Assembly (NCBI RefSeq): GCF_963668385.1 | Contig: NZ_OY764327.1 | Span: 6,207,091-6,271,090 of the forward strand | Reading direction: 5' to 3' | Source of the DNA: an uncultured Carboxylicivirga sp. | GTDB taxonomy: Bacteria; Bacteroidota; Bacteroidia; Bacteroidales; Marinilabiliaceae | DNA: 64,000 nt | Shown here: piece by piece, positions 179 through 33,473 of the stretch | Layout: each line of letters begins with the position of its first letter | How positions within the stretch are numbered: position 1 is the first letter of the stretch | The notes under the pieces: model-generated | Seen by the model: the letters and a program-made list of their open reading frames with translations, nothing else | Told to the model about the DNA's origin: nothing | The model's database searches: none | Program-made: the position numbers and the translations under genes

Positions 179-1537
179 TTAAATCAATCCAAGTTCTTTT
201 TCAATTTGTTCCAACGATTTCCCTTTGGTTTCAGGGATCCGGAATTTTACAAACACAAAAGCTATAACGCTGAATATACCAAAGATACCAAACAGGTAAC
301 TTAGCCCCAATTGCCCTTGTATAACAGGTGCGAAATAAACTGTCAGGAATGTACATAACCAGCTTACTGCTGTTGAAAATGACATAGCCACACCCTTAAT
401 TCTATTGGGATATATTTCTGATATAATAACCCACATAACAGGAGCAAAGGAGGCTGCAAAAAAGGAGATATAAACCAATAAAGCAATGAGTACTCCGGCT
501 CCATACTGGGTCTGTTTGCTAAATTCAAAAGTAAGATATGCCAGTGAAACAACCATGCCTACTGCCCCCCAAAGCAGTAAAGTCTTTCTCCCTTTTTTAT
601 CAACCAGCCAAAGTGCTACAATTGTCATTAGAAAATTAACCAGACCAACAATCATGGCTTGCATCATCGAATCTCCCTGGGCCGATCCAGCCGCTTTGAA
701 AATATCGGGTGCAAACATGATAACTGCATTAATTCCTGTTATTTGTTGTAGCGCAGCAATGGCTGTTCCAATGGCAACAATTTTACCTGTTTTCCCCTTA
801 AACAGTTCTGAAACCCTAACTTTTTCTTTTGATTTTTCCTCCTTTATAACTCTCTCTATTTGCTCCATTTCATTATTTACCAACTCCTCTCCTCCAATCT
901 TTAACATTACAGCTTCGGCCTCAGTTTTTTTCCCCTTAGCAATTAGCCATCGCGGGCTTTCCGGAAAAGAAATTAGTATAAAAATGAAATAAAAAATACT
1001 GAATATTGCTGGTACAGCTAGCATATAACGCCAACTGTCATCTCCTAAATCAATAAGAAAATAATCGAAGATATAAGCTAAAACAATTCCAATGGTAATG
1101 GCAAACTGATTCATTGAAACCAACCTTCCCCGACTATGAGCAGGTGATATTTCAGAAATATACATAGGCCCCACTACCGATGTAGCTCCTACAGCCAAAC
1201 CTGATAGTACTCTGAACACAATCAATATCACAGATGATTCGGCTAAAGCACACCCCATGGCAGAAATTATATACAGTAATGCTGTTGCCTGCATCACTTT
1301 CTTTCGTCCATATTTTTCGGTGAAGTTGCCAGTAAAAAGGGCCCCGATTAAACAACCAAATGTTAATAAGGCAGCAACGGTTCCCAAACCGCCATCGGTT
1401 AAAGAAAATTCACTTTTTAGCATATCAACGGCACCTGATATACCAGCCATATTTAATCCAAATAACAATCCCCCATTAATAGCTACAAATGTAATCCAAT
1501 ATAAATAAGTTGCGTGTATTTTATTATTCGTCTCCAT
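179..1537 (-). CDS. MFS sugar porter (SP family) importing a monosaccharide
   Basis: About 452 residues with roughly 12 hydrophobic segments. Sugar-porter signatures are visible: GRKKVMQ in the loop between helices 2 and 3, PESPRWLIAKGK before the central loop, QQITGINAV in helix 7, DKKGRKTLL, and PETKGKSLEQIE at the C terminus. The frame can be extended upstream to a TTG at 1561, but the ATG at 1535-1537 (METNNK) follows the GH36 stop by 7 bases and is preferred. As the inner-membrane importer of a fructan or raffinose-type PUL it would take up fructose, glucose or galactose by proton symport. The exact sugar cannot be read from the sequence. Fructose is favoured by the adjacent fructokinase. 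Confidence 0.9.
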   Translation of the reverse strand: METNNKIHATYLYWITFVAINGGLLFGLNMAGISGAVDMLKSEFSLTDGGLGTVAALLTFGCLIGALFTGNFTEKYGRKKVMQATALLYIISAMGCALAESSVILIVFRVLSGLAVGATSVVGPMYISEISPAHSRGRLVSMNQFAITIGIVLAYIFDYFLIDLGDDSWRYMLAVPAIFSIFYFIFILISFPESPRWLIAKGKKTEAEAVMLKIGGEELVNNEMEQIERVIKEEKSKEKVRVSELFKGKTGKIVAIGTAIAALQQITGINAVIMFAPDIFKAAGSAQGDSMMQAMIVGLVNFLMTIVALWLVDKKGRKTLLLWGAVGMVVSLAYLTFEFSKQTQYGAGVLIALLVYISFFAASFAPVMWVIISEIYPNRIKGVAMSFSTAVSWLCTFLTVYFAPVIQGQLGLSYLFGIFGIFSVIAFVFVKFRIPETKGKSLEQIEKELGLI

Positions 1538-1544
1538 AAATTTA

Positions 1545-3782
1545 CTATTTATTATAACCAACAGCTTTTAGTTTAAATACAGCACTATCAAACTGTTCTG
1601 AAAGAGTTAATTCTATACCCACACTCATCAGGTAAGATGCAGAAAACGTTTGACCATCACCCCAGAATTGACTATCGCCTTGTTTATTGATTTCAATAAT
1701 CTGATACTCTTTATTCGTATCCAGTCCGTTTAGTTTAATGGTTGAATAAACTCCACGTGTATGCTGATCGGTACTAAAGGCATAAAGTACAGCCGATTCC
1801 TTATCCTTTGAAACAAACATTTGGGATGCATAACCACCTTCATCATAAGGCGATTGTAATCGGTACAAATCACCGTTGGTTATTATCGGACGTATAAATT
1901 GTTTATAGTTTTTGATGGCATCTTCGGCAAATATTCGATCCTCTCCCTGAATATCTTTAGGCTGCAATTCCATTCCCAAGCGACCGGTCATGGCCACATC
2001 AAAGCGAAATTTTAGTGGAGTAACGCGCATGGTTTGATGATTAGGACTAGTTGACACATGCGATGCTGCCCCCACTGGTGGATAAATTAAAGTGGTTCCG
2101 TATTGAATAAAAATGCGCGATAAAGGATCGGTATTATCTGATGTCCAGTACTCATTATGATATTTTAATGCACCATAATCCAGTCGTCCACCACCTGAAG
2201 CGCAATCCTGAATTACAAAGTCAGGATATTTGGCACGAATGCGTTCATAAACAGCATACAAACCCTGCGTATAGCCATTCCATAGATGAGTCTGCTCCGA
2301 GGAAGGTAAATAAGTTGATCCGGCCTGTTCCACATGTCGGTTGGCATCCCACTTTATATATTCAATACCGGGGTGAGTAGTTAATAAACTATCAAACACA
2401 TTGTAAACAAAATCCTGCACTTTGGGATTTGACAAATCCAATAGCAACTGATTTCGCCAAGTAATTTTCTCTCGTCCATTACTTTGCACAATCCACTCCG
2501 GATGATTTTCGGCCAATTCGCTTTTAGGATTCACCATTTCAGGCTCAATCCACAATCCAAATTTGAGTCCTTTTTTGTGCGCATATTTAATCAAGTAATC
2601 AATCCCGTGGGGTAATTTCTTTTTATTGGTTTGCCAATCGCCCAAACCGGCAGTGTCGCTGTTTCGAGGATATTTATTTCCAAACCAGCCATCATCCAGC
2701 ACAAAAGTCTCAATTCCCATTTCGGCAGCATCATCCATCATGCCTGTTAGTGTTTTTTCATCAAAAGTAAAATATGCACCTTCCCAACTGTTTAGCACAA
2801 TATCATGTATTTTATTTCCGCCAACCATAGCATATGTGCGGCCCCAGTCGTGCAGATTACGTGAAACCTGACCACGCCCTTCGTTACTATAGGTGTAAAT
2901 CATTTCAGGCGTAGTAAATTGCTCTCCTGTTTTTAAGGTCCAGTCCGAAAGGAATGGATTGATACCACTTACAATATTAAGCATTTTCCACTCATCCAGC
3001 TGAAAAGCCAAACGGTAGTTACCCGACCATGCTAATGCACCCCCATAGCATTCTCCCGAATTTTCTAAAGATGGATGGTTCAAACTTAAAATAAACGAAG
3101 CATTTTCAGTTTGTGTTGTTCTCACTCCTTTCTTGCAATCGATAACTTTAATGCCATTTTCAATCTTCTCTTCCACCATAGTCATTTCGCCAGCCCAGGC
3201 ACCATAAAAATGTGTTAAGTAATAGCTTTGAGCTTTCAATGGCAAATAAGATGAAGCATAATTAGTGAGCTTCACAGCTCCTTCCTCATCATTTTTTATC
3301 ACCGTCCACTGACTGATTACATCTTCTTTGTAAAAAGCTTTGGTATGAAGTTCAACGGTAAAGTCATATACCGGATCTTTTAATTGGATAACTGTTTCTT
3401 CGACATTTGGGTTCGATTTGTCGATATTTACACCATTATAAATCAACTCGGTATTTAAACTACCATCGGAATGAATGACTGTTAAAGCCGGTTCATTAAT
3501 ATTTCCATGTCCAAAGGCCGGATAGGCTTCGTAAGAGAAATCTCTATCAGTATCCATTTTAGGATAAGCCCTTTGCTGCATAAAGTCATCGTTTGCATCA
3601 ACCTTTGCTCCATAATGTTGAAATACCAGCCGTCCATCTTTATCCACCGCATAAACCAGAGAGGTTGACTGAGTTTGAATTTCTATGACGTTGGAATTTT
3701 GTGCAACTATCACTGAATATGGCAGTAGTAAAATTCCTATAGCGAGTAGTATCGTTTTTAATGTTGTTTTCATGATTTTCAT
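1545..3782 (-). CDS. GH36 alpha-galactosidase, exported
   Basis: 745 residues with an N-terminal signal peptide ending near a VAQN site. The GH36 (melibiase) hallmarks are present. The nucleophile motif YIKWDANR has its Asp near residue 478. The CASGGGRLDYGA substrate-binding loop follows, then SDNTD with the acid/base Asp near residue 548. An FVLDDGWFG strand and a C-terminal beta domain complete the family architecture at the usual length. It should remove terminal alpha-1,6-galactose from raffinose or stachyose. With the neighbouring GH32 this gives complete dismantling of raffinose-family sugars: galactose first, then sucrose to glucose and fructose (inference). It lies 12 bases after the GH32 gene in the same operon. 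A second in-frame ATG lies three codons downstream at 3771-3773. Confidence 0.92.
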   Translation of the reverse strand: MKIMKTTLKTILLAIGILLLPYSVIVAQNSNVIEIQTQSTSLVYAVDKDGRLVFQHYGAKVDANDDFMQQRAYPKMDTDRDFSYEAYPAFGHGNINEPALTVIHSDGSLNTELIYNGVNIDKSNPNVEETVIQLKDPVYDFTVELHTKAFYKEDVISQWTVIKNDEEGAVKLTNYASSYLPLKAQSYYLTHFYGAWAGEMTMVEEKIENGIKVIDCKKGVRTTQTENASFILSLNHPSLENSGECYGGALAWSGNYRLAFQLDEWKMLNIVSGINPFLSDWTLKTGEQFTTPEMIYTYSNEGRGQVSRNLHDWGRTYAMVGGNKIHDIVLNSWEGAYFTFDEKTLTGMMDDAAEMGIETFVLDDGWFGNKYPRNSDTAGLGDWQTNKKKLPHGIDYLIKYAHKKGLKFGLWIEPEMVNPKSELAENHPEWIVQSNGREKITWRNQLLLDLSNPKVQDFVYNVFDSLLTTHPGIEYIKWDANRHVEQAGSTYLPSSEQTHLWNGYTQGLYAVYERIRAKYPDFVIQDCASGGGRLDYGALKYHNEYWTSDNTDPLSRIFIQYGTTLIYPPVGAASHVSTSPNHQTMRVTPLKFRFDVAMTGRLGMELQPKDIQGEDRIFAEDAIKNYKQFIRPIITNGDLYRLQSPYDEGGYASQMFVSKDKESAVLYAFSTDQHTRGVYSTIKLNGLDTNKEYQIIEINKQGDSQFWGDGQTFSASYLMSVGIELTLSEQFDSAVFKLKAVGYNK

Positions 3783-3794
3783 ATTGGATTTAGA

Positions 3795-5360
3795 TCACCA
3801 AATTGATTTAATTTCAGCCAATTGAGAATGAGTCATCGAAATAGCTTGCCCTTTAGAAAATATTTTTAATTTACTGAATGGCTGAGTACAAAAGAATATT
3901 TCGGTCATCACCACATCTCCATTATTAACAAATATTTCCATCGAAGCTGCATCGATGAAGATCTCCAAATTCAAGGTTGATCCTGTTTGATAAGGTGCTG
4001 TTGAGATATGTGCAAACTTTTCGGAAAAACTTAAATTACCCGATTGTGTACGATTAAATTGAAACTGTTTTGTCGAATCAACATAGCTAAATTTTATTTG
4101 CTCATTTAGGTTGTTTTCTAAAATAATTCCAAATTCGTGAGGAATAGAATCACCTAATTCAAAATCAAATACCAAATGACTTTGATTCAGATTTATTCCT
4201 TTTGTATTTAGCACAAACTCATCACTTATGCTTTTAACTTGATTTGAAATAACAGTTTCAGTATTGATGATTTTATTGATTTCTTCAACTGGTGTAGATC
4301 GCACCATAAATTCATCTTTCTTTTTCACTAATGAAAGAACACGAGGCAAGGTCATTGCACTTCTCCATTTTTTAGTCGGAACCACTTGTGCATAATCCCA
4401 ATTACTCATCCACCCCATAAAAATTCTGCGACCATCTTCTTTAGGAACATCAGCCCAGGTTACCCCAGCATAATTATCATGTCCCCAATCTAACCACTTG
4501 GTTTCTTTTGTATCGGCATTAAACTTACGCCCATCAAATTCACCCGTAAAATACTGGGTTGCGGAGCCTCCATTGGGTCCACCCGGATTAATATTTACAA
4601 TTAATACCCATTTAGCCTCCTCTGTATCATCTACCTTCAAAGGAAATAAATCAGGACATTCCCAAACGCCTCCATGACCGCCCGCATCAACACCAAAATC
4701 ACTTTCATATTTCCATTCTTTTAAATTATCAGAGGAATATATTTGCACATGATCGTGCGCCGAGAGAACCAAATTCCATTTTTGAATGTCTTCATTCCAA
4801 AAAACATTGGGATCACGAAAATCTCTATTCCCGTCATTAGGTATCACAGGATTACCTTCGTATTTGATCCAGCTTCGCCCTTTATCAATACTATAAGCAA
4901 TGGCCTGCGACTCCACATCCACTACACCAGCTTCAGCAATTAGCGCATTGTGGTAGGTATATATGGCAATCAATGGAGGATTCTCCTGGGTACCTAATCC
5001 ACTGGTATTTTTCCAGTCAACCACTGCACTTCCTGAGAAAATATAACCTAAGCTATCAGGATATAAGGCAATGGGTAAATGCTGCCAGTGGACCAAATCG
5101 GTGCTAACTGCATGCCCCCAGTGCATGGGCCCCCAAACCGTACTATCAGGATAATATTGATAAAACAGATGATATTCACCATCGTAGTATACCATTCCAT
5201 TGGGATCGTTCATCCAGGCTGAATCTGGCGAAAAATGGTATTGCGGTCGATATTGCTCTGTATATCTTATCTCTTTGCTTTCCGTCTGTTTATCTGAACC
5301 AGAAGAACAAGCCCATATTAACATGGGAATTAAAAATATTATATAGGATTTATAATTCAT
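3795..5360 (-). CDS. GH32 beta-fructosidase lipoprotein (sucrase/levanase type)
   Basis: 521 residues. The N terminus is a lipoprotein signal with Cys18 in an IWACSSG lipobox. The five-bladed propeller of GH32 follows with every catalytic motif intact: WMNDPNG (nucleophile Asp52), RDPNVFW (transition-state Asp183) and WECPDLF (acid/base Glu234). FSGS and GGHGG loops are also present. A C-terminal beta-sandwich starts near residue 370 and ends with the MEIFVNNG strand typical of the family. The enzyme hydrolyses beta-fructosides such as sucrose, inulin- or levan-type oligosaccharides; the preferred linkage cannot be told from sequence. As a lipoprotein in a SusCD locus it is expected in the periplasm or on the cell surface. 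The upstream gene is a degenerate paralogue. Confidence 0.95.
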   Translation of the reverse strand: MNYKSYIIFLIPMLIWACSSGSDKQTESKEIRYTEQYRPQYHFSPDSAWMNDPNGMVYYDGEYHLFYQYYPDSTVWGPMHWGHAVSTDLVHWQHLPIALYPDSLGYIFSGSAVVDWKNTSGLGTQENPPLIAIYTYHNALIAEAGVVDVESQAIAYSIDKGRSWIKYEGNPVIPNDGNRDFRDPNVFWNEDIQKWNLVLSAHDHVQIYSSDNLKEWKYESDFGVDAGGHGGVWECPDLFPLKVDDTEEAKWVLIVNINPGGPNGGSATQYFTGEFDGRKFNADTKETKWLDWGHDNYAGVTWADVPKEDGRRIFMGWMSNWDYAQVVPTKKWRSAMTLPRVLSLVKKKDEFMVRSTPVEEINKIINTETVISNQVKSISDEFVLNTKGINLNQSHLVFDFELGDSIPHEFGIILENNLNEQIKFSYVDSTKQFQFNRTQSGNLSFSEKFAHISTAPYQTGSTLNLEIFIDAASMEIFVNNGDVVMTEIFFCTQPFSKLKIFSKGQAISMTHSQLAEIKSIW

Positions 5361-5385
5361 CTTTATTAGTTTAGCTGTTATAATT

Positions 5386-6864
5386 TCACTTCAACTCTGT
5401 AATCTTTCCTTCCTGTAAACTGATGGAACCATTCTTACCAAAAAACTGCAAATCAACCACATCTCCTTCAAAAACAAACTTTCTTGATACCCCCACCAAT
5501 CCTTCCATAGCAAATAATTCAACTGATTTTTGATCGATAATCAAGGTCATATCAACTTGTGGCTCATTGGTAACATATGGAGCATAGTTAAAACCATCCC
5601 ATGTATCGGGGTAATTCTTTTGAATGGATGGATCAGAAATAAAGAAATACCTTCGTTCTGCCTGATAGCCTACAATTAGCTCCTGCCCATTATCATTCGA
5701 TATTTTAACACCAAAAACCTCTGCCATACCTAAATACAAACGATTATCAACATTAAATTTCAAATCAATCTTTATAGGTAATTGAGCTTTTTCTTCAATT
5801 TGCTTCTGATCAGCCAACTCTATACCTGATATAAAAGTATTACTCGCTGAATTGGATTCAGCCAGATTGGTTGGCTGTTGAATAAGGTATAAATCATTAA
5901 ACTTCTCAATTAAACTTAGTTTACGAACCAATGAAAACTCTGTTTGAGCATCATCAGGCAGATTAAATTTTTGATAGATTGAATTGTAAATACTTCCGAT
6001 CAAAACAGGCTGTTTATTTACAGTATAATAATCTGAAAGAACAACGGTTTGATAGATATCGCTTCCATGATCAATCCACTTGGGTTTATTATGAGATGAC
6101 ACATAAGCAAAACCGTCATAGTCACCAACAAAATACTGTACACCACTCCCTTCATTGGGCGAACCTTTATCAGCACTAATGGTTAGTATCCACTTTATTA
6201 CTCCTGTTTTTTCTACTTCCATCGGAAAGAAATCAACACTTGTCCATTCGCCTGATTTCAAATACACATCATCGCCAAATCGACTTACATATTCCCATTC
6301 TTTCAAATCATCTGAAGAATAGAATTGAACCTGGTATCCCGATAACACCAACATATTCCATTTCTGAGTATTATCGTTCCAAAACACTTTCAAATCCATT
6401 ATTGGATCTGATAAACCATCGAGTAATATGGAGACATCTGAATCTTCATTCCATGTTAAACCATTATCATGACTGAATAAGAGGCTTAATTCTCCCGATT
6501 TATCATCGTTACTACAAAATGCGATTAAACCAGGCTTTTCATTGCTGTATTTTGTCAGGTAACTCCAATCAACCAAAATACTCTTAATATTATTCTCTGT
6601 TGCTGATTCTATCCTCATTGGTACATTATTCCAATGCTGTAAATCTTTGCTTTCCACCTGCCCCCATTTTTTGCTCTTTCCATCAATTGAATAGGTATAA
6701 TACAGATGATAGACATCATCAACACAAATTATTTCAACCGGTTTTGTTAGTGCCGAATCCTGTAAACTAAAGTGTATAGATGTTCTGATATTTTTATTAC
6801 CACAACCAGAGCCCCCCAAAAAAACAATCAAAACCAGTATTATATTTGCTATGGAATTTTTCAT
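5386..6864 (-). CDS. Catalytically dead GH32-like lipoprotein
   Basis: About 492 residues from the ATG at 6862-6864; an earlier ATG at 6901-6903 would place a polar stretch before the signal. A hydrophobic signal ends in a Cys at residue 21. The body aligns along its whole length with the GH32 next door, for example HFS near the start, FWNDNTQKWN, YSSDDLKEWEY and GVQYFVGDYDG. All three catalytic motifs are changed. Lys41 replaces the nucleophile Asp (ALTKPVEI instead of WMNDPNG). RDP is MDL at 156-158. Thr208 replaces the acid/base Glu (WTSVDFF instead of WECPDLF). Hydrolysis should therefore be impossible. The frame is long and intact and keeps its aromatic surface residues, so a retained binding role, like a surface glycan-binding protein, is inferred. 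It follows susD directly, the usual place for such proteins. Confidence 0.85.
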   Translation of the reverse strand: MKNSIANIILVLIVFLGGSGCGNKNIRTSIHFSLQDSALTKPVEIICVDDVYHLYYTYSIDGKSKKWGQVESKDLQHWNNVPMRIESATENNIKSILVDWSYLTKYSNEKPGLIAFCSNDDKSGELSLLFSHDNGLTWNEDSDVSILLDGLSDPIMDLKVFWNDNTQKWNMLVLSGYQVQFYSSDDLKEWEYVSRFGDDVYLKSGEWTSVDFFPMEVEKTGVIKWILTISADKGSPNEGSGVQYFVGDYDGFAYVSSHNKPKWIDHGSDIYQTVVLSDYYTVNKQPVLIGSIYNSIYQKFNLPDDAQTEFSLVRKLSLIEKFNDLYLIQQPTNLAESNSASNTFISGIELADQKQIEEKAQLPIKIDLKFNVDNRLYLGMAEVFGVKISNDNGQELIVGYQAERRYFFISDPSIQKNYPDTWDGFNYAPYVTNEPQVDMTLIIDQKSVELFAMEGLVGVSRKFVFEGDVVDLQFFGKNGSISLQEGKITELK

Positions 6865-6897
6865 TTCAACTTGAATTTGTTTGAGATATTTTGGGTT

Positions 6898-6932
6898 AAT
6901 CATGGCAGAAGCAATATACTTCCACCATGATT
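6898..6932 (-). terminator. Intercistronic stem-loop after susD of PUL 1
   Basis: AATCATGG and CCATGATT pair around an inner GAAG/CTTC helix with a symmetric CA/CA internal loop. The structure lies immediately after the susD stop. No strong T-run follows on the minus strand, so it is more likely a partial terminator or mRNA-stability element than a full stop. A stem-loop also follows susD in PUL 2. Confidence 0.45.
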
Positions 6933-6942
6933 ATATTATTTA

Positions 6943-8685
6943 TTAGTATCCTACATTTTGAGTATAAGAATCCACCGTAAAGTCGATTTCGCGTTGCGGA
7001 ATTGGAAAATACTCATCTCTACCAGCAGTGAACTTTGCATTATTCAAAAAATCGTGTCTTGTTTTTTCCTTTTCTAAATAATCATTCAAAGTAGTAGCGG
7101 CTATACCCCAACGAACTAAGTCGAAGAAACGAGGACTTTCCAATGCAAACTCCAAACGACGTTCCCAACGAAGAGCAATACGTGCATTTTCCTGATTCCA
7201 TGCCAGATTAGTTCCGTCATATTCCGAGATTAAATAATTGGATGGAGCAGAACCATCTGCAAAACGAGTTCTTCCGGTACTTTCAGCAGCTCTTTTTCGT
7301 ACCTGATTAATAAGAGGACGAGCCATCTCAGGTTGCCCCAACTCAATGTAAGCTTCGGCTTGCATTAAAAGCACATCGGCATAACGGATTACATCTATAT
7401 TTTTAGATACGCCCATAAACGGACCTTCTTTCTTATAACAAGAACAATCGGCAGCCTGTTGCTCCTTCATACTCTGAAAATAGCCATAAACTCCAGGATC
7501 GCGTACCCAGCTGTTACTAAAGATGTAATTCTCTTCGTTTCTGTATTTGTACGGATGTCCGTCTAAACCTACCGAATGATCGATACGAGGATCAACTGTT
7601 ACGCCATCAGGTGTAATATCTGCAGCACTCAACTCCACATCGTTGAAAGTGTCAAATTTAGGCAGTCCGGTTGTACTGGTTGCAAATGCATTTACCAAAT
7701 TCTGACTAGGTTGATGAAATCCACAACAACCATACTGAGGAGCTCCATGCGGATAGTTTAATCCATTTTCAAAGTTCAATCGACCAACAGTAGTTCCATC
7801 ACTAATTGAAAACTGAATGGCAAAAACAGATTCAGGTCCATTATCATAACCATCCAGAAAATTCTCACCAAAATCAGGTTGCAAACTGTAACCTCCTTTA
7901 GTGATTACATCTTCACAAAGATCAACCACTTCTTGTAAACGCTCTTTATTGATATTAATAACCTGGTTATTATCATCTTGTTCATATGCCTGATACAATC
8001 TTAGTTTTGCCAAATAAGCTTCAGCAGCATATTTATTGGCTCTACCAACTTCAGGTTGCTTTTCAGGTAGATTATTCATGGCAAATTCAAAATCTTCGGC
8101 GATTTTACTCCATAATTCATCGTTTGTATAAGCACGGTTTTTGGTGGCTAATATTTCTTCTTTACTAAGATCTTCTGTGATATATGGAATGTACTTAAAA
8201 AGCACTTTCAACATAAAATGGGAATGACCTCTTAAGAATCGAGCCTCTGCCATTCGTGTCTTACGTAAGGCATATTCTTCATCAGTCAACTCATTAAGAG
8301 TTTTTAAAGCTGAATTAGCACGAGAAATAGCCCGATAGTAATTCTCCCAAGTAAAAGGCAAACCGGCTAACCAATTTTGAAATGGCTGAGTTAGATTATA
8401 CTGCTCATAAAAGTTGAACGGTTCCATATCGGCTACACCACCTCCTCCTTTGTAGGCATCATCAGACCTAACACTTCCATACACCCACATACTTGCAATA
8501 GGACCAATCATATCATCATTTCCAATACCGGCATAAGCGGCGGTAACCAATCCTTCAGCGGCATCGATGGTAGGACTGCCGGCTGTGATAAAACCCTGAG
8601 GTTCTGTTTCGAGATAATCGCTGCAAGAAAGAGCTAACATGCTAATCAGTGCTACGATGTATATATTGATATTTTTCATTTTCAT
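6943..8685 (-). CDS. SusD/RagB-family surface glycan-binding lipoprotein (PUL 1)
   Basis: 580 residues. The signal ends in the lipobox LALSCSDYLE, giving an acylated Cys and the S-D-Y-L-E start typical of SusD proteins. The helical TPR-like core is visible (RANSALKTLNEL, MAEARFLRGHSHFML, YAAEAYLAKLRLY). The SusD C-terminal block is present too (DVLLMQAEAYIELGQ, NQVRKRAAES, WERRLEFALESPRFFDLVRWG), ending in the usual PIPQREID segment. It caps the SusC channel on the outer surface and captures oligosaccharide for TonB-driven import. The gene is 21 bases after susC. Two ATGs, at 8683-8685 and 8677-8679, are both possible starts. Substrate, by neighbourhood, is probably a sucrose-core galactoside or a fructan. 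Confidence 0.95.
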   Translation of the reverse strand: MKMKNINIYIVALISMLALSCSDYLETEPQGFITAGSPTIDAAEGLVTAAYAGIGNDDMIGPIASMWVYGSVRSDDAYKGGGGVADMEPFNFYEQYNLTQPFQNWLAGLPFTWENYYRAISRANSALKTLNELTDEEYALRKTRMAEARFLRGHSHFMLKVLFKYIPYITEDLSKEEILATKNRAYTNDELWSKIAEDFEFAMNNLPEKQPEVGRANKYAAEAYLAKLRLYQAYEQDDNNQVININKERLQEVVDLCEDVITKGGYSLQPDFGENFLDGYDNGPESVFAIQFSISDGTTVGRLNFENGLNYPHGAPQYGCCGFHQPSQNLVNAFATSTTGLPKFDTFNDVELSAADITPDGVTVDPRIDHSVGLDGHPYKYRNEENYIFSNSWVRDPGVYGYFQSMKEQQAADCSCYKKEGPFMGVSKNIDVIRYADVLLMQAEAYIELGQPEMARPLINQVRKRAAESTGRTRFADGSAPSNYLISEYDGTNLAWNQENARIALRWERRLEFALESPRFFDLVRWGIAATTLNDYLEKEKTRHDFLNNAKFTAGRDEYFPIPQREIDFTVDSYTQNVGY

Positions 8686-8706
8686 GACTTAATTAGTTTT
8701 GATTGA

Positions 8707-11700
8707 TTAGAATGAAACATTTACACCTACTGAGAAAGTTCTTGGAATAGGCACTAAATCCAGATTTGTACGTTCAGGATCCGGTCCCTGAAATTCCTTA
8801 CTCTTAATCCAGAATAAATTCTCGGCCATTGCATAGAAACGAAGTTTTTCCATGTGCAAACGTTCCATGATTCCAGCTGGTAATGTGTATCCAACCTGAA
8901 CATTACGTAACTTAAAGTACGAGGCATTCACATTCAGATAACTGGAAGTACGTGTTTCGTTATTACTATCTGATAAAGTCAATGCAGGAACATCGGAATT
9001 TGGATTTTGCGGAGTCCATGCACTAAACACACCAGGACCAACATTGTCGCGACCACGAATAAAGTCGTTATAAAAGGTGTAAGGATCATATCCTGTTTTT
9101 CCGGCTACTCCAGATCCGAATATCGAAACATCATAATTCTTGTAGTTCAAATCAATGCGAAGGCTGTATTCCAATTTAGGAAGCAGGGTTCCCAAAAACT
9201 TCTGATCAGAAGAATTGATAACACCATCATTGTTTAAATCGGCCCATCTGATACGGCCTGGTGCTGCACCCACCTGATCGGCATGCGCTTGCACTTCAGC
9301 ATCATTCTTAAAAATACCATCAGCAACATAACCAAATATCGAAAGTTCTGAATGACCAACCACTGTTTGCTCTGAGTTACCCGGATAAGCTGTTCTTACC
9401 GCTTCGGGCAGATCGGTAATCTTATCGGCAAAATGACTGGCACTTCCTGCTACTTCATACATAAAATCGTCGTTTACCTGCTTACGATAGCTCAAAGCAA
9501 ATTCCCAACCAGTATTCTTTTTGGTGGCTCCGTTTAAGAACTGTAGTTGTCCTTCGCCTAATGCTGAAGCTACTGGTGGTTGAATTAATATATCAGTCGT
9601 TTTTCGGGTATACCAATCAAAGGATCCAATCAACTTACCATTTGCAAAGCCAAAGTCCAATCCAAGGTTCAATTCATCTGTAGTTTCCCATCTTAATGCA
9701 GGATTGGCGGCTTGAACTGACACAAAACCAGAAGATAGATTACCCGTATTTTGTCCGTTTAAGTCATAGGCTGAACCTACATTCCAATAATTATCGAAGA
9801 AATCATTATGCGAGACACCATCCACCTGGCTGGCCACGGCTCCATAACGAGGTTCGTATAATCCAAGACTGGCAAAATCACCTACATCCTGGTTACCAAC
9901 GCGCCCTACACCCGCTCTGAATTTTAAATTAGAAAAGATATCCATGTCTTTAATAAAAGATTCTTCACTCAAACGCCATCCGAAAGTGGCAGCAGGAAAA
10001 AATCCATATCTATTATCTGCTCCAAAACGAGACGAACCATCGCGACGTAAAGTAACTGAAGCCAAAAAGCGCTCATCATAATTGAAATCTATCTTACCAA
10101 ATTGAGAGAACAAACGACTTCCGGTTGCTGTACCAAAGCTATTTCCGTTGTTGGTACCGGCGCTCAATACAAAGAACTCCTCTGTTTGCGTTGAAAAACC
10201 TTCTTTGTAACCCATAAAATCCTGGAAATCGTCGCTTACAGCTTCAATACCCAATAAAAATCCGAATTTACTTTTTCCCCAATCCAGACTATAATGTGCG
10301 GTATTTGTCCATGTTACACTGGTAAAATCACTATTGTAAATACTCAGGTTATTAACCGATCTGGCAATAAAACCGTTGGTAAAAGCTGGTTCAATATCCT
10401 TATCCTTCACCATTGAATAATCAAGCCCTAAGGTTGTTCTAAAAACCAAATTCTTTACAGGTTGTATTTCAGCATATACACTTCCAAACAAATACTTACG
10501 ATTGGTATTATCCCAGCGGTTAATGTATTGCATCATTAACGGATTATTTCTATCTGAATATCCTGATCCCAGTGGCCCGGCATATTCACCATCTGCTGTG
10601 TAAACAGGTATGGTTGGTGCCATGGTAACACCTAATCCGGGAGTTGGTGCATTACCTAAATCATTTGCTGCCAATGTTTCATTGGAAGATACAAATTGAG
10701 CATTTAATCCAAACTTAACCTTATCATCCAACAAACTAGTTTGTCCGTTAATTCTGGCTGTGATACGGTCGTAATCGGTATACTTTAACATTCCAGTGTT
10801 TTTGATATAACCTACATTCATTAGTACCGATGATTTTTCTGTACCTCCTGAAATGGTAAGATCATTATTAATCACAAAACCGGTTTGATAGATTGCATCC
10901 TGCCAGTCAGTATCACCTACCGGAACATTAGTATCACCTCCTACATATGGCTGCGGAGTAACACTGTTTAATACAGGATTACTATAATCACCATTCCAGT
11001 CAAAGTTGTATATTTCCCCGTACCCACTGGCTGGATCAATACCATCATTAACTGAAGCCTGCCACAAAGCACGTCCTCGGTCTACTGCATTAAGCATATT
11101 TAAACGCTGTGATTTCTCGCTTTGAACTGATAGATTAGAGTTAAACTGTACACTAACCTCTCCTTTCTTGTCTGATCCGTTTTTAGTTGTAACTATCACT
11201 ACTCCGTTTGAAGCCCGTGCTCCGTAAATAGAGGATGCTGAAGCATCTTTCAGTACCTGAACCGATACAATAGATCCGGCACTTAAGCCTTGAAATACTT
11301 CCGGACGTTTGGTTGGTACTCCATCAATAATGTATAGAGGATTGTTGTCTCCCAAAGTATTTACACCCCTAATTAAGATACGATTATTGGCGGCATTAGG
11401 AGAACCACTTTTTTCGATATATAATCCAGGAACACGACCTTGTAAAGCCTGCATGGGGTTACCTGAACTTAAACTAACATTTTCTATCGATTCTAATTCA
11501 ACTACCTCAATGGCTCCGGTTAAATCGGCCTTACGCTGAACCTGATAACCAATGGCTACCACCTCATCCAATCCAACCGATTCTTCCAATAAAGTAACAT
11601 TTATGTCTGTTGCTCCATTTAAAGCAATTACTTGTTTTTGCATACCAATAAACGAGAACTCCAACACATCTGCTATACCCACATTACCCAAAGAATAGTT

Positions 11701-12192
11701 CCCATCAAAATCGGTGATGGTTCCCTCCGTAGTTCCTTGTATAACCACTGTTACACCTGGTAATGGAGCTCCTGATGCATCAGTAACCTTTCCGGTAACG
11801 GTAACCTTTTCAGGCTGTTCCTGCTGCTGAACATCCTTCACTTTAGTAACGGCAATGTACTGATCAATTACTTCGTATGTATATCCTGTATCTTTAAATA
11901 TATCGGCAAGTACCTGATCAAGATCCTGATCTTCATAGTCAACAGCTACCATTCTGTCTAATATTTCCGCATCGGCTTTTAATACAAAATGGTAACCTGT
12001 TTTTGCTTCAATTTGCTCAATAACCTCCTCAAACGTAGAATTAATGTTTAAGGATATCTTTCCTGTTTGTGCGAAAGATTTTGAGTATAAATTCATACTT
12101 AAGATGAATATGAACAAGACTGTTAGCTTCATAATTCGCATAATTTGCTTGAGATCTGAATGATTCAGACTCAAATCCGGTTTTTTTTTCAT
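8707..12192 (-). CDS. SusC-type TonB-dependent transporter with STN domain (PUL 1)
   Basis: About 1161 residues from the ATG at 12190-12192 (MKKKPDLSLN). The upstream ATG at 12268-12270 adds 26 residues inside a strongly structured leader and is less likely. Domain order: signal peptide, STN domain (FEEVIEQIEAKTGYHF onward), carboxypeptidase-D-like repeat (VTGKVTDASGAPLPGVTVVI), TonB plug (IRGVNTLGDNNPLYIIDGVP, VLKDASASSIYGARASNGVV) and a 22-strand barrel ending in VGVNVSF. The STN domain is what couples outer-membrane transporters to FecR anti-sigma factors, matching the fecR and ECF sigma genes upstream. So substrate loading should switch on the locus through FecR and the sigma factor (established for this architecture). 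SusD follows directly. Confidence 0.96.
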   Translation of the reverse strand: MKKKPDLSLNHSDLKQIMRIMKLTVLFIFILSMNLYSKSFAQTGKISLNINSTFEEVIEQIEAKTGYHFVLKADAEILDRMVAVDYEDQDLDQVLADIFKDTGYTYEVIDQYIAVTKVKDVQQQEQPEKVTVTGKVTDASGAPLPGVTVVIQGTTEGTITDFDGNYSLGNVGIADVLEFSFIGMQKQVIALNGATDINVTLLEESVGLDEVVAIGYQVQRKADLTGAIEVVELESIENVSLSSGNPMQALQGRVPGLYIEKSGSPNAANNRILIRGVNTLGDNNPLYIIDGVPTKRPEVFQGLSAGSIVSVQVLKDASASSIYGARASNGVVIVTTKNGSDKKGEVSVQFNSNLSVQSEKSQRLNMLNAVDRGRALWQASVNDGIDPASGYGEIYNFDWNGDYSNPVLNSVTPQPYVGGDTNVPVGDTDWQDAIYQTGFVINNDLTISGGTEKSSVLMNVGYIKNTGMLKYTDYDRITARINGQTSLLDDKVKFGLNAQFVSSNETLAANDLGNAPTPGLGVTMAPTIPVYTADGEYAGPLGSGYSDRNNPLMMQYINRWDNTNRKYLFGSVYAEIQPVKNLVFRTTLGLDYSMVKDKDIEPAFTNGFIARSVNNLSIYNSDFTSVTWTNTAHYSLDWGKSKFGFLLGIEAVSDDFQDFMGYKEGFSTQTEEFFVLSAGTNNGNSFGTATGSRLFSQFGKIDFNYDERFLASVTLRRDGSSRFGADNRYGFFPAATFGWRLSEESFIKDMDIFSNLKFRAGVGRVGNQDVGDFASLGLYEPRYGAVASQVDGVSHNDFFDNYWNVGSAYDLNGQNTGNLSSGFVSVQAANPALRWETTDELNLGLDFGFANGKLIGSFDWYTRKTTDILIQPPVASALGEGQLQFLNGATKKNTGWEFALSYRKQVNDDFMYEVAGSASHFADKITDLPEAVRTAYPGNSEQTVVGHSELSIFGYVADGIFKNDAEVQAHADQVGAAPGRIRWADLNNDGVINSSDQKFLGTLLPKLEYSLRIDLNYKNYDVSIFGSGVAGKTGYDPYTFYNDFIRGRDNVGPGVFSAWTPQNPNSDVPALTLSDSNNETRTSSYLNVNASYFKLRNVQVGYTLPAGIMERLHMEKLRFYAMAENLFWIKSKEFQGPDPERTNLDLVPIPRTFSVGVNVSF

Positions 12193-12205
12193 AATTTTGA
12201 ATGTT

Positions 12206-12324
12206 CGAGTTAATACTTGCCTGTTAGCGCAGGCGTTATTTCTTGATGTAGAACCGGATGCTGGTAACATCCGTTTTACACTTCAGGTCGAGGATACTAA
12301 CACTATTCACGGCCTGATTTTTTT
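12206..12324 (+). ncRNA. Candidate cis-antisense RNA opposite the susC leader (PUL 1)
   Basis: The stretch between susC and fecR folds into three stem-loops on the plus strand: GCCTG/CAGGC (12219-12234), CGGATG/CATCCG (12255-12273) and TCAGGTCG/CGGCCTGA (12283-12317). The last is followed by seven Ts. A perfect -7 box, TAATTTTG (12192-12199), sits about 10 bases before the putative start, without a clear -33 box. Bacteroides PULs of the sigma/FecR type are known to carry antisense RNAs of the DonS kind at exactly this place. The alternative is simply a structured 5' leader of the susC mRNA. RNA evidence is lacking. Confidence 0.35.
12283..12324 (+). terminator. Intrinsic terminator on the plus strand between susC and fecR (PUL 1)
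   Basis: The stem TCAGGTCG/CGGCCTGA (one G-U pair, 19-base loop) is followed by TTTTTTT on the plus strand. There is no plus-strand gene it could serve, so it points to antisense transcription over the susC start. Confidence 0.5.
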
Positions 12325-12383
12325 GTTAGCTTCTTTTGTTTTAAATACTTCTATTTTAGATTAATAATTAGTTAACTACGCAC

Positions 12384-13364
12384 TCACTCCCAATAAATAA
12401 GAGTAGGTCTGTCTGATCGGTATTCGATTTGATAATGAAGTGAGGAAGTTCTTTTAAGCACTTCCAAAATCTGATCAATAGGTTTATTTTTCATGATCGA
12501 TCCGAAGTACAACTCTTTAGCCAGCTTTTGATCTTTAATAATAATCTCAACATTGTACCATCGCTCCAATTTCTTTGCTATATCTTCCAACTTTTCATTT
12601 CTAAAGATGATGATGCCATCTTGCCACGATGTGTATAAATCAACATCTACCTCTTTCACACTATATTTCTTTGAAACATCGTTATAGCTAATTTTTTGTC
12701 CCGGTTTCAGACGAACGATCTCATCTCCCTTTTTAGCTACAACCCCTAGGCTTCCTTCTACCAATGTTGTGTTGATTCTATCGTCATCATCATAAGCCTG
12801 AATATTAAAAGAGGTTCCATGCACTACAAAATCGAGCGTTTTGGTCTTTACTATAAAAGGATGTTCTGCATCTCTAGCTACATCGAAAAAAGCCTCGCCT
12901 GTTAATTCAACTGTTCGCTCGCCCTGGGTAAAGTTACCTGTGTATGAGAAGTGGCTTCCCGAATTTAATTGAACAACCGTTCCATCTGGTAAAGTGATAT
13001 TGGACATTTGCCCGTAAGGGACATCAATCACTGCATTAGACGCATAAACCGCCTCATCAATACCTCCCCATTTCAATTGTTTTTGAATGAACATGCCCAA
13101 TGCAAAAAACAATATAACGATAGCTGCATAACGGGCAATAACATTAATTGATTGAATTTTTCTACGATGAATACTGCGTGATATTACCTGATTCCATATG
13201 CTATGACTATCCTCTGATGATTTGGATGTAAGAGCATAGGCTTTCTTTAGTTTTATAAACTCAGATTTGAATTCGGAAGAGTTTTCGATTTGTTTAAAAA
13301 TCTCCTTCACTTCTTCTTCTGTAGCTTTACCTGATAGATATTTTATGACTTGAGTATGATCCAT
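12384..13364 (-). CDS. FecR-family anti-sigma factor (PUL 1)
   Basis: 326 residues. A short cytoplasmic sigma-binding part is followed by one membrane helix (YAAIVILFFALGMFIQ, near residues 104-120). Next comes the periplasmic FecR domain (VPYGQMSNITLPDGTVVQLN, TGEAFFDVARDAEHPFIVKT, VHGTSFNIQAY). The C-terminal DUF4974-like domain (LERWYNVEIII onward) contacts the STN domain of SusC. It should hold the neighbouring ECF sigma factor inactive until SusC reports substrate. It is 75 bases after the sigma gene, in the same orientation. Confidence 0.93.
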   Translation of the reverse strand: MDHTQVIKYLSGKATEEEVKEIFKQIENSSEFKSEFIKLKKAYALTSKSSEDSHSIWNQVISRSIHRRKIQSINVIARYAAIVILFFALGMFIQKQLKWGGIDEAVYASNAVIDVPYGQMSNITLPDGTVVQLNSGSHFSYTGNFTQGERTVELTGEAFFDVARDAEHPFIVKTKTLDFVVHGTSFNIQAYDDDDRINTTLVEGSLGVVAKKGDEIVRLKPGQKISYNDVSKKYSVKEVDVDLYTSWQDGIIIFRNEKLEDIAKKLERWYNVEIIIKDQKLAKELYFGSIMKNKPIDQILEVLKRTSSLHYQIEYRSDRPTLIYWE

Positions 13365-13439
13365 TTTTTTGCTTTATACCATTAGTACACGCAAACATGG
13401 ATACACCCTATATCAAAATGAAGAAAATTTTAAAAAATG

Positions 13440-14051
13440 TTACGAAAGGTAACGAATCACTAATTGAACTAACACAGCTGGTAAGAATTCCGCCAATTTT
13501 ATACTTAATTGTTTTAAGGCTCTTGTGATATTCGCTTCTACTGATTTTACTGATATTTGAAGTTCCTCAGCAATCTCCTTATTCTTCTTTGATTCAAAGC
13601 GACTCATCATAAAAACCTGCTTGCTCTTCTCGGGTAGTTCATTAATGGCACGATAAATCAACTCTTCCATTTCGGTAAATTCAATGGAATCAAAATTAAA
13701 AGAGTTTAATATTTCGGCATTAATATTACTCTCTACCTGTTGCAAACGTTGATCTTCGTATCTCTTAATTACTTTTTGATGACGAATAAAATTAAGGCAA
13801 GACGACTTGGCATAAGTATACAAAAAAGATTTTATGCCATTGGATGATTCAATCTTATTGCGATTAATCCATAGGTTAATAAAAGCTTCCTGCGCCAGAC
13901 TGGCCGCCTTATCATGATCGAAAATAAATTGATAACAAAAGCCAACAATCGAATCATAATTAGCTTTAAAAACATGCTCAAAGGCCGATTCGTTTCCATC
14001 TTTTAATTGTATGAATACGAATTCATTTGCATCTTCACTTTCTACTAACAT
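13440..14051 (-). CDS. ECF sigma-70 factor of PUL 1
   Basis: 203 residues with the two ECF domains. Region 2 is near residues 20-90 (AFEHVFKANYDSIVGFCYQF, AQEAFINLWINR). Region 4 is near residues 130-185 (INELPEKSKQVFMMSRFE, NKEIAEELQISVKSVEANI, the helix-turn-helix). It belongs to the large Bacteroidota group of SusCD-linked sigma factors and should drive the susC promoter. The start ATG is at 14049-14051. FecR is the next gene. A 12-base palindrome, AGATAATTATCT, lies 138 bases upstream at 14189-14200; its role is unknown. Confidence 0.93.
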   Translation of the reverse strand: MLVESEDANEFVFIQLKDGNESAFEHVFKANYDSIVGFCYQFIFDHDKAASLAQEAFINLWINRNKIESSNGIKSFLYTYAKSSCLNFIRHQKVIKRYEDQRLQQVESNINAEILNSFNFDSIEFTEMEELIYRAINELPEKSKQVFMMSRFESKKNKEIAEELQISVKSVEANITRALKQLSIKLAEFLPAVLVQLVIRYLS

Positions 14052-25621: not shown

Positions 25622-27265
25622 CTACTTTTGGAATATCTCAGGGTATTTTCTTATAAAATAGGTTGGGGTACAACTCCATGCATGACAATAACTATTTACC
25701 GGATAAAAATGATAAGGCGATAAAAAATCATCTGTTGGACTGTAAACTTCCCAAAAAGTATCTGCTCCTTTTTCAACCATTCCACCCCAAAAATCCATTA
25801 TTTGTTGCTTTGCTTCATCTGTCATACCAACATTAATCAATGATTGTATAAAATAATGATACATATACGGACCTCCGGGAAAAAGCGCCTCTTTATTACT
25901 CATTACATTTTTTAAAGCACGTTTACCTTGTTTTTCTGTCAGAGCTCCACCTAAAATCATCCATACTTGTGATGCATATGATATTTGCTTATCAACACCA
26001 CTTTCAAACAATCCTGTTGATTTATTATACAAATTGCCTATTGCTTCCTTTTTCATCTTTTTTACCAAAGCAGGTATAAAACTAACTTCATCTTGCTTAT
26101 TTAGTTGTTTAGCAAGAGTGTAAGTTTCATTTAAAGCAAACATCATCAACCCTTGTATGGCAGCTTCTTTATTCAACCCTTCTTTCCAATCGAAAAACAA
26201 CCACCACTCTTTGTTGGCTGTTTTGTAATCAACCATTCCCTTTTCCGAAACATATTTTTGAATAATATCCAGTTGACGTTTGGCAACAGGCCACAATTCA
26301 TTAGCTGTTTCTATATCTCCTGTTGCTTTCAGGTATTCTTTTAAAGTACAGTTGTATAAAAGCGAATAATCCATCAAACGCTGATGAGCCTGAGCATGAG
26401 GCTCGGGTGTTTCAAACACAGTACCTAATACATAACCTTCTTCATCTGATAAACCAGCCAATAAATACAAACAACGTTGGGTTAACTGATGATTTTTGAA
26501 AGTGACCGTATTTGCTAACGATTCAAGATACATATCACCAACCCATAATCGTCTGTCGCGTTTAGGACCATCTTCGTATACCGTTTGCATACATTCCTTC
26601 AGTGTCTTCTGACTAACGTTATCTATTGCTTTAATTTTGTCTGGGGTAGTAGTGGCTAATTCATCTGGTTGGTTTGCAACTGAGGTATATGCCCTAAAGC
26701 GTACCTCACTTATTCTGAAATCGAAATAACGCGATGCACCCAACAATTCTATTTTCATATATCGACCAGATATCCTTCTTGATAAACTAACGGTTGAAGG
26801 TATGTGCATAACTGTTACCACCTCATCCTGAAGCCAGGCACGACTTAAATCACCTTTATAAGGATCAAATGGTGTTGCCAACTCGGCCGGTACCTCTCCA
26901 AATGTGAGCTTAAAACGAACCGGCGCATCTGAGGTTCCAAAAATGGTTTGTAAGTCCATTGAAAAATAACCGGTATAATGATCTCCAAAATCAATAATTA
27001 CGCTTTTTTGCTCACGAAACGATTGATGATAAAACTCATCAACAGTTATTGTTTCAGATGCCTCCCATCCTTGAAACGCATCTTTGTTTTCAACCATTGC
27101 AACCATACGTTGAGGCTGAATTACTTCTTCAATTAATTTAGGTTTGATCTCTTCTGATTTAATAACCCATTGTTCACCATTCTTATAATAAGTTTGTGCC
27201 ACACTTACGGTTACACCTGCAATTAACAGTATAGACAAGAGAATATTTCGTTTTATTATTTTCAT
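25622..27265 (-). CDS. GH78-like alpha-L-rhamnosidase or related (alpha/alpha)6 glycosidase, exported
   Basis: 547 residues with a signal peptide (ILLSILLIAGVTVSVAQ). A beta-sandwich domain occupies about residues 70-200. An (alpha/alpha)6 barrel follows with the GH78-type motif EDGPKRDRRLWVGDMY near residue 230, whose acidic residues include the general acid in GH78 enzymes. GADTFWEVYSP near the C terminus matches the GxTTxWE motif holding the general base. It is much shorter than typical GH78 enzymes (about 900 residues), lacking the extra N-terminal beta domains and the C-terminal one. It is the last gene of PUL 2, 9 bases after GH3. Cleavage of terminal alpha-L-rhamnose is the family activity; the short form leaves substrate open. 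Confidence 0.75.
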   Translation of the reverse strand: MKIIKRNILLSILLIAGVTVSVAQTYYKNGEQWVIKSEEIKPKLIEEVIQPQRMVAMVENKDAFQGWEASETITVDEFYHQSFREQKSVIIDFGDHYTGYFSMDLQTIFGTSDAPVRFKLTFGEVPAELATPFDPYKGDLSRAWLQDEVVTVMHIPSTVSLSRRISGRYMKIELLGASRYFDFRISEVRFRAYTSVANQPDELATTTPDKIKAIDNVSQKTLKECMQTVYEDGPKRDRRLWVGDMYLESLANTVTFKNHQLTQRCLYLLAGLSDEEGYVLGTVFETPEPHAQAHQRLMDYSLLYNCTLKEYLKATGDIETANELWPVAKRQLDIIQKYVSEKGMVDYKTANKEWWLFFDWKEGLNKEAAIQGLMMFALNETYTLAKQLNKQDEVSFIPALVKKMKKEAIGNLYNKSTGLFESGVDKQISYASQVWMILGGALTEKQGKRALKNVMSNKEALFPGGPYMYHYFIQSLINVGMTDEAKQQIMDFWGGMVEKGADTFWEVYSPTDDFLSPYHFYPVNSYCHAWSCTPTYFIRKYPEIFQK

Positions 27266-27274
27266 ATCTTCCTT

Positions 27275-29554: not shown

Positions 29555-29569
29555 AGTAAATTTGTTTCC

Positions 29570-31798: not shown

Positions 31799-31894
31799 TG
31801 TATATAAGTATTGAATTAATAGCAGTAAACTTTTATTAAGTGTTTGCCAGTATGATTGCAGCAACATCTATTAACAAAGAGTACGCTAGACTTG

Positions 31895-31935
31895 AAAAAA
31901 ATAAAGGCAAGCAACCTTCTTCTAGTGCTTGCCTT
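31895..31935 (-). terminator. Stem-loop with T-run between susD and the GH5 gene (PUL 2)
   Basis: Minus strand: AAGGCAAGCA and TGCTTGCCTT pair across a 12-base loop, followed by TATTTTTTT. It lies 9 bases after the susD stop. Partial termination here would make susCD more abundant than the enzyme genes. Confidence 0.7.
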
Positions 31936-31943
31936 CTTCTCAA

Positions 31944-33455: not shown

Positions 33456-33473
33456 TTCAATTTGAGTTAAGGG

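Follow-up and report, generated by a model that had tools for sequence, protein, structure and literature searches.

A GH32-derived protein without two of the three catalytic residues of its family, here called pseudo-GH32, is encoded directly after susD in a levan-type SusCD locus of an uncultured Carboxylicivirga sp. We give about even odds (a probability of roughly 0.5) to the reading that it is a non-catalytic outer-membrane lipoprotein standing in the position of the surface glycan-binding protein (SGBP) of the SusCD import complex. Because its catalytic parts have been lost and it has long been kept in the place of an SGBP, its role is probably in catching sugar and not in cutting it.

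A GH32 homologue between susD and an intact GH32 gene

The window, that is, the whole stretch of 64,000 nucleotides analysed, sits at the end of a single 6.27 Mb contig. Its minus strand carries, in order, genes for an ECF sigma factor, a FecR-type anti-sigma factor, SusC, SusD, pseudo-GH32, an intact GH32 (the neighbour or partner enzyme), GH36 and an MFS porter, with intergenic gaps of 78 bases before and 25 bases after pseudo-GH32. The features are as follows.

179..1561, minus strand: MFS sugar porter (TIGR00879 over cut-off)
1545..3782, minus strand: GH36 alpha-galactosidase (Melibiase 394.6 bits, GH36 N and C domains)
3795..5360, minus strand: partner GH32, exo-inulinase-like, catalytic motifs intact (WMNDPNG, FRDPNV, WECPDL); best solved match 8i12, an exo-inulinase, 397.5 bits
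5386..6864, minus strand: pseudo-GH32, a GH32-derived pseudoenzyme and predicted lipoprotein of 492 aa (matches to GH32N and GH32C; two-domain GH32 fold by prediction; replacements at two of the three catalytic residues)
6241..6243, minus strand: Thr208 codon, position of the acid/base Glu, by comparison with partner enzymes and orthologues
6394..6396, minus strand: Asp157 codon, retained transition-state stabiliser Asp (RDP to MDL; Asp in 20 of 22 orthologues)
6742..6744, minus strand: Lys41 codon, position of the GH32 nucleophile Asp, by comparison with partner enzymes and orthologues
6802..6804, minus strand: Cys21 codon, putative lipidation site (GSGC, relaxed lipobox), behind a hydrophobic N-terminus
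6943..8685, minus strand: SusD homologue, BT1762 (levan) type (464.6 bits to levan SusD chains; next other SusD 94.6)
8707..12270, minus strand: SusC homologue, BT1763 type (782.8 bits to 5t3r_D, also 8a9y; next other SusC 427.6)
12384..13364, minus strand: FecR-type anti-sigma factor (best match a FecR model, 53.8 bits, below the equivalog cut-off of 385)
13440..14051, minus strand: ECF sigma factor (TIGR02985 over cut-off)

Another SusCD locus, with GH78, GH3 and GH5 enzymes, lies at 25622-36818 (minus strand) of the window.

The open frame of pseudo-GH32 encodes 492 aa, or 505 aa if an upstream ATG at 6903 is used, and both domains score above the curated Pfam cut-offs (GH32N, PF00251, 122.3 bits with a cut-off of 22.1; GH32C, PF08244, 39.1 bits with a cut-off of 21.9). 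The neighbour GH32 scores 335 and 75 bits for the same domains, and the two proteins are 28% identical over 485 columns. Strong GH32N matches in the whole genome are confined to this pair, with four others scoring 20–27 bits. The sequence-only reading had described an intact frame with full-length GH32 homology, a signal and a place directly after susD, of which the frame and the place are confirmed; the N-terminus has a hydrophobic stretch followed by Cys21, a putative signal. It had also named structural modelling as a check; the predicted structure, the fold of which was compared with solved structures by VIA-align, has the five-bladed propeller and beta-sandwich of the two-domain GH32 fold, although the conserved sandwich stretch 412-432 is modelled with a pLDDT below 50. 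No match to DUF5018 or to DUF4960, the latter marking levan SGBPs of the BT1761 type, was found in the window pseudo-GH32 by profile scan.

Alignment to the neighbour GH32 and comparison with orthologues confirmed that Lys41 takes the position of the nucleophile Asp and Thr208 that of the acid/base Glu. The earlier statement that all three catalytic motifs were destroyed is right for the motifs and wrong for the residues, because the Asp within the RDP-to-MDL change (Asp157) is retained. The stabiliser Asp is thus the sole triad residue to survive, and with these substitutions pseudo-GH32 would be expected to lack hydrolytic activity. Because it passes the GH32 cut-offs without two catalytic residues, counts of GH32 domains overestimate fructan-cutting capacity.

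The fructan contacts W85, C298, C299 and R368 of BT1762 are kept in all 21 orthologous SusDs compared, from which the SusD of locus L080, split over two frames, was excluded; Y395 is replaced by Phe. In the window SusD, D67 of BT1762 is kept, N43 is not, and D41 is ambiguous in the alignment. Of the 9 sibling SusDs, all have R368 and 7 have the Cys pair, but W85 is kept in only 2.

Conservation of pseudo-GH32 across relatives

A first scan of genome contigs returned six loci, from Carboxylicivirga linearis (99%), four Draconibacterium (56–57%) and Mangrovibacterium lignilyticum (50%), in all of which pseudo-GH32 stands between susD and an intact GH32; the window protein is 99% identical to the C. 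linearis copy. A later survey was anchored on the SusD protein, so that loci were not chosen by pseudo-GH32 itself, and covered 149 relatives of one Draconibacterium carrier and 71 genomes of the window's family, with the best candidates per genome (up to 9 or up to 19) scored. Among these top candidates, the Draconibacterium relatives yielded 29 SusD places in 24 genomes (17 at 73% or above, 12 at 48–51%), and in the window family 17 places were spread over 13 genomes, 12 of them at 48–52% and 5, the window included, at 75% or above. At 22 of 22 loci with an orthologous susD (at least 72% identity), pseudo-GH32 is encoded with susC/susD and immediately downstream of susD, as is looked for in an SGBP; the near-identical pairs window/L007 and L026/L027 are counted separately here, and the number is 20 if each pair is counted once. 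The L084 protein, the best BLAST match of which is the active reference (32%), was counted as a pseudoenzyme by its lost motifs and tree placement.

When 393 genomes were drawn evenly from the order and 3 candidates were scored in each, the only returns were the window, G083, the locus of which has the same coordinates as that of G560, and G324, which has a susD at 60% and no pseudo-GH32. Presence is also patchy at the genus level, with pseudo-GH32 in the window genome and one other of 14 genus genomes. The window copy groups inside the Draconibacterium-side clade, apart from the same-family genomes G046, G048 and G050. The patchy presence and this placement suggest horizontal transfer of the locus (window positions 179-14051).

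The nucleophile column in the 22 orthologues holds Asn in 11, Lys in 3, Ala in 3 and Ser, Leu, Tyr, Met and Ile in 1 each, with Asp in none. The acid/base column holds Thr in 18 and Ser, Ala, Asp and Leu in 1 each, with Glu in none, and the stabiliser column holds Asp in 20, Ser in 1 and Ile in 1. Nucleophile and acid/base are therefore each lost in 22 of 22 orthologues (20 with near-identical pairs merged), whereas none of the 21 partner GH32s compared from the same loci has lost either, all three triad residues being invariant in them. These 21 leave out the partner GH32 of L133 (3960-5567, minus strand), which is interrupted by a TGA, possibly a sequencing error; the pseudo-GH32 of L133 is intact. 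The changes extend beyond the triad: the Trp, Asn, Gly, Arg and Cys that the enzymes have at pseudo-GH32 positions 38, 40, 44, 156 and 209 are mostly lost, the FSGS motif is whole in no member, and, of the positions that at least 20 of 21 enzymes share, 79 remain in fewer than 4 of 20 pseudoenzymes, those around the pocket among them. The ancestral fructose pocket is probably not intact, judging from these residues. At the same time, all 20 distinct pseudoenzymes agree at 38 positions, such as W207, R405 and Y400, and the residues conserved specifically in pseudo-GH32 include T208 (16 of 20 distinct members), Y177 (18 of 20) and R405 (20 of 20).

The pseudo-GH32 gene is constrained, yet more loosely than its neighbours: dN/dS in 11 overlapping close pairs, none of which includes the window copy, is 0.12–0.28 for pseudo-GH32, 0.06–0.14 for the partner GH32 and 0.02–0.04 for SusD. 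These related copies of pseudo-GH32 are thus under purifying selection. Over 16 loci, the mean distance is 0.73 for pseudo-GH32 versus 0.42 for the active GH32. Conservation has also shifted away from the catalytic propeller, with mean pairwise identities at 14 core loci of 69.0% (propeller) and 73.5% (sandwich) in pseudo-GH32 and of 89.1% and 69.1% in the partner; the same measure at 19 loci gives 54.1% and 56.1% for pseudo-GH32 and 80.9% and 53.4% for the partner. Segments better conserved in pseudo-GH32 than in the enzyme include 253-267, 368-382, 395-409 and 421-435, and segment 231-245 is conserved in both. Taken together, the conserved segments of pseudo-GH32 span 253-272, 368-385, 395-435 and 442-456.

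Random frame damage among orthologues had been named as the observation that would mark a merely decaying gene, and 22 of 22 frames are intact at loci keeping susD. One truncated relative was seen in L134 (genome G534; 6045-6817, plus strand), where the start of SusC is fused to a 120-aa tail of pseudo-GH32, by deletion or by an assembly join; it falls outside the 22 since its susD is missing. Most of susC, susD and pseudo-GH32 are gone together there and the active GH32 is intact, as expected if the role of pseudo-GH32 is tied to the transporter. Pseudo-GH32 is thus a maintained and not a decaying copy.

Origin of the clade and the slot after susD

Trees from which duplicate or truncated rows had been left out place the pseudoenzymes in one clade (support 100/99 with 20 rows and 100/100 with 21 rows). 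The active enzymes nearest to this clade are eight other GH32s with which it forms a group (100/99), and 7 of them lie beside a sibling susD; the core pseudoenzymes have a mean identity of 31.5% to these eight versus 28.5% to the neighbour enzymes. Forcing the pseudoenzyme clade together with 16 neighbour enzymes makes the tree worse by 58.7 log units (AU p = 0.008), the group tested being 16 of 20 partner rows, with the partners of L026, L027, L028 and L082 left out because the tree places them elsewhere. The proposal of a glycosidase duplicated in tandem, with the neighbour GH32 as its source, is accordingly rejected by the tree and the AU test; the branches are long and may have affected the placement, and the conclusion therefore goes no further than a lack of support for an origin by tandem duplication of the neighbour. 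Two degenerate GH32s lie outside the clade, at L029:3705-5282 (minus strand; nucleophile and acid/base motifs WMHVPSG and WDNPDF) and L048:820-2271 (minus strand; FVGSPSA and KGRPDL), so that GH32s have turned into pseudoenzymes on more than one occasion in these bacteria.

The SGBP of SusCD systems is often encoded right after susD, and the sibling loci follow this pattern. In 9 of the 24 sibling places (SusD 48–52%) that were opened, a lipoprotein-like ORF of 368–486 aa follows susD in all 9. Profile scans of five of these loci found DUF4960 in 4 and DUF5018 only in 1, and L085 has a DUF4960 protein whose match to the SGBP chain in the levan utilisome structures (8aa2/8a9y) scores 149.8 bits. 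Since the sibling loci hold an SGBP-like protein after susD, the dead GH32 occupies the SGBP-like place of its relatives, and at all 22 orthologous loci a GH32-fold protein without two catalytic residues is kept there. A genome scan found no DUF4960 match in the window genome, and the 21 other carrier genomes have 13 DUF4960 matches in 8 genomes, none at the pseudo-GH32 locus. The gene after susD in G324 is neither pseudo-GH32 nor SGBP-like, and the slot is therefore not obligatory.

Acidic residues after the lipidated Cys occur in surface-export signals of Bacteroidota. By eye, acidic residues stand close behind the Cys (CEEE, CDEE, CQKDEE and like) in 9 of 9 sibling SGBP-like proteins. The window pseudo-GH32 (CGNKNIR) lacks such a run, which counts against a plain SGBP and slightly lowers the odds given to that reading; the partner GH32 (CSSGSDK) likewise lacks it. 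The N-termini of the orthologues are hydrophobic with a Cys in 22 of 22 by eye, and 9 of 22 match the lipobox pattern.

Role of pseudo-GH32 and comparison with known systems

In the reading given about even odds above, pseudo-GH32 would be secreted and then lipidated at the putative site Cys21, would come to lie on the cell surface with SusC/SusD and the partner GH32, and would help to keep beta-fructoside chains, either fructo-oligosaccharides or sugars of the raffinose type, close to the transporter during their trimming by the partner GH32. Lipidation, surface location, docking on SusCD, glycan binding and the nature of the ligand are all steps that we infer. That loss of the nucleophile need not end binding follows from Asp-to-Ala mutants of GH32 enzymes that were crystallised, by their structure titles, with raffinose, sucrose or inulin (8beu, 9tdv, 2qqw and 3u14), the mutated Asp residues of which we take to be the nucleophiles. 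The loss of the pocket surroundings in pseudo-GH32 counts against a simple use of the old pocket. A further, tentative step, to which we would give less than even odds, is that a dead GH32 of the pathway displaced an unrelated DUF4960 SGBP, slot for slot, in a levan-type SusCD utilisome, with a GH32 fold that could already hold fructans and dock on SusC being recruited as a lineage-wide SGBP.

Two narrower versions of the role fared less well. GH36 is found within the fetched stretch at 13 of 22 loci (the L080 match is just 41% identical, and the L084 stretch is short), and a raffinose-specific role is therefore not supported as the general one; raffinose is perhaps one ligand. The regulators at the 22 loci are hybrid two-component sensors (HTCS) in 17 and ECF sigma/FecR pairs in 5, and the retention of the same gene beside two kinds of regulator weakens the regulatory sensor role that the sequence-only reading had offered as an option. 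The exchange itself is seen at otherwise syntenic loci when window positions 12384-14051 are compared with the other 21 loci.

Somewhat unlikely, yet the foremost of the alternatives, is that pseudo-GH32 serves as a scaffold at SusCD. The stabiliser Asp is a fructose-contacting residue in GH32, and its retention in 20 of 22 orthologues would be needless for a pure scaffold. For such a role speak the dismantling of the ancestral pocket well beyond the triad with the fold kept in the model, and the location of the segments whose conservation exceeds that in the enzyme, which lie for the most part in the beta-sandwich and at 253-267. The GH32 BT1760 is known to dock on SusC, according to the available text of PMC7618045, and for BT1284, a GH18 that is likewise dead and belongs to a SusCD locus, the available part of PMC11180146 describes no measurable substrate binding, for which reason a scaffold is to be taken seriously.

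That pseudo-GH32 instead helps its partner enzyme, raising the performance of the active GH32 by surface organisation or by preventing inhibition in the manner of plant defective invertases, is improbable. The two genes adjoin in 18 of 22 loci, and the distance matrix of pseudo-GH32 over 16 loci is correlated with that of the active GH32 (Pearson 0.94, versus 0.90 for SusD and 0.89 for SusC), but a correlation of this kind is expected from shared phylogeny alone, other genes stand between the two in L026, L027, L083 and L133, and the active GH32 of L134 survives without pseudo-GH32 and without SusCD. The precedent is tobacco Nin88, which indirectly activates cell-wall invertase (PMC3713406, as far as its available text goes).

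A changed mechanism or new activity on the GH32 fold, with other catalytic residues or another substrate, is very improbable: the stabiliser Asp and W207 are kept and new conserved polar residues (D232, E238, K203 and R405) have appeared in the clade, but the nucleophile position varies among unrelated residues (Asn, Lys, Ala, Ser, Leu, Tyr, Met and Ile), which counts against a new mechanism, since that would need a uniform replacement. Least credible of all is a functionless copy in slow decay, for although dN/dS is above the partner's in every one of the 11 overlapping pairs, divergence is fast and one relative (L134) is truncated, random decay is rejected by the intact frames, a dN/dS well below 1 and the conserved pseudo-specific positions (T208, Y177 and R405), with the single clade also against it.

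If the SGBP-like reading is true, pseudo-GH32 shows, in nature and across a lineage, the change of a GH32 from cutter into probable binder, and 21 of the 22 loci encode an intact GH32 that can serve as internal control. Two questions then become testable, how far the lipoproteins around SusCD are interchangeable and whether SGBPs can originate from enzymes of their own pathway. A literature search on GH32 pseudoenzymes returned no match, and a bacterial GH32-derived SGBP is named in no title or abstract opening among the matches listed, most subscription journals lying outside the scope of the search.

Dead glycosidases in SusCD loci are already known from BT1284 and the GH18-like pseudo-endoglycosidases of Bacteroidales PULs, the catalytic substitutions of which are conserved over many species, as the available text of PMC11180146 relates. 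BT1284 resembles pseudo-GH32 in that a dead glycosidase homologue and an active relative are encoded in one SusCD locus, and conserved non-conservative substitutions of catalytic residues are common to both. BT1284 is, however, a GH18 TIM barrel of N-glycan loci without measurable substrate binding (PMC11180146, same portion), and, belonging to a different GH family, it is an analogue and not a homologue of pseudo-GH32. Plant GH32s unable to cut sucrose are likewise known. Defective invertases such as tobacco Nin88 have the GH32 fold and a role of their own although they do not split sucrose, but in the available part of PMC3713406 the triad is never affected, only an Asp/Lys couple and Trp residues near the glucose, whereas pseudo-GH32 has lost nucleophile and acid/base and is a bacterial predicted lipoprotein of a SusCD locus.

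Engineered Asp mutants of GH32 (by titles, BT1760 D62N in 7znr, D188A in 8beu and D81A in 9tdv) have likewise lost the nucleophile Asp, and Asn, the commonest natural replacement in pseudo-GH32 (11 of 22), is the same change as in the 'inactive' 7znr; the engineered mutants keep otherwise intact pockets, whereas the natural pseudo-GH32 has lost surrounding residues too. BT1760 was not among the solved sequence matches of pseudo-GH32 or of the partner GH32, and an attempt to map its secondary fructan site via the levanase-like L086 was fruitless, as BT1760 was not matched by sequence. The levan utilisome consists of SusC BT1763, SusD BT1762, the SGBP BT1761 and the GH32 BT1760, which docks on SusC (PMC7618045 and PMC7782687, in their available parts, with the docking from the former). 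The window locus has the same SusC/SusD type and, in the order SusC, SusD, predicted lipoprotein and GH32, the same set of parts. It differs in that its partner GH32 is exo-inulinase-like and not an endo-levanase of the BT1760 type, and in that a dead GH32 holds the place of the DUF4960/Ig SGBP.
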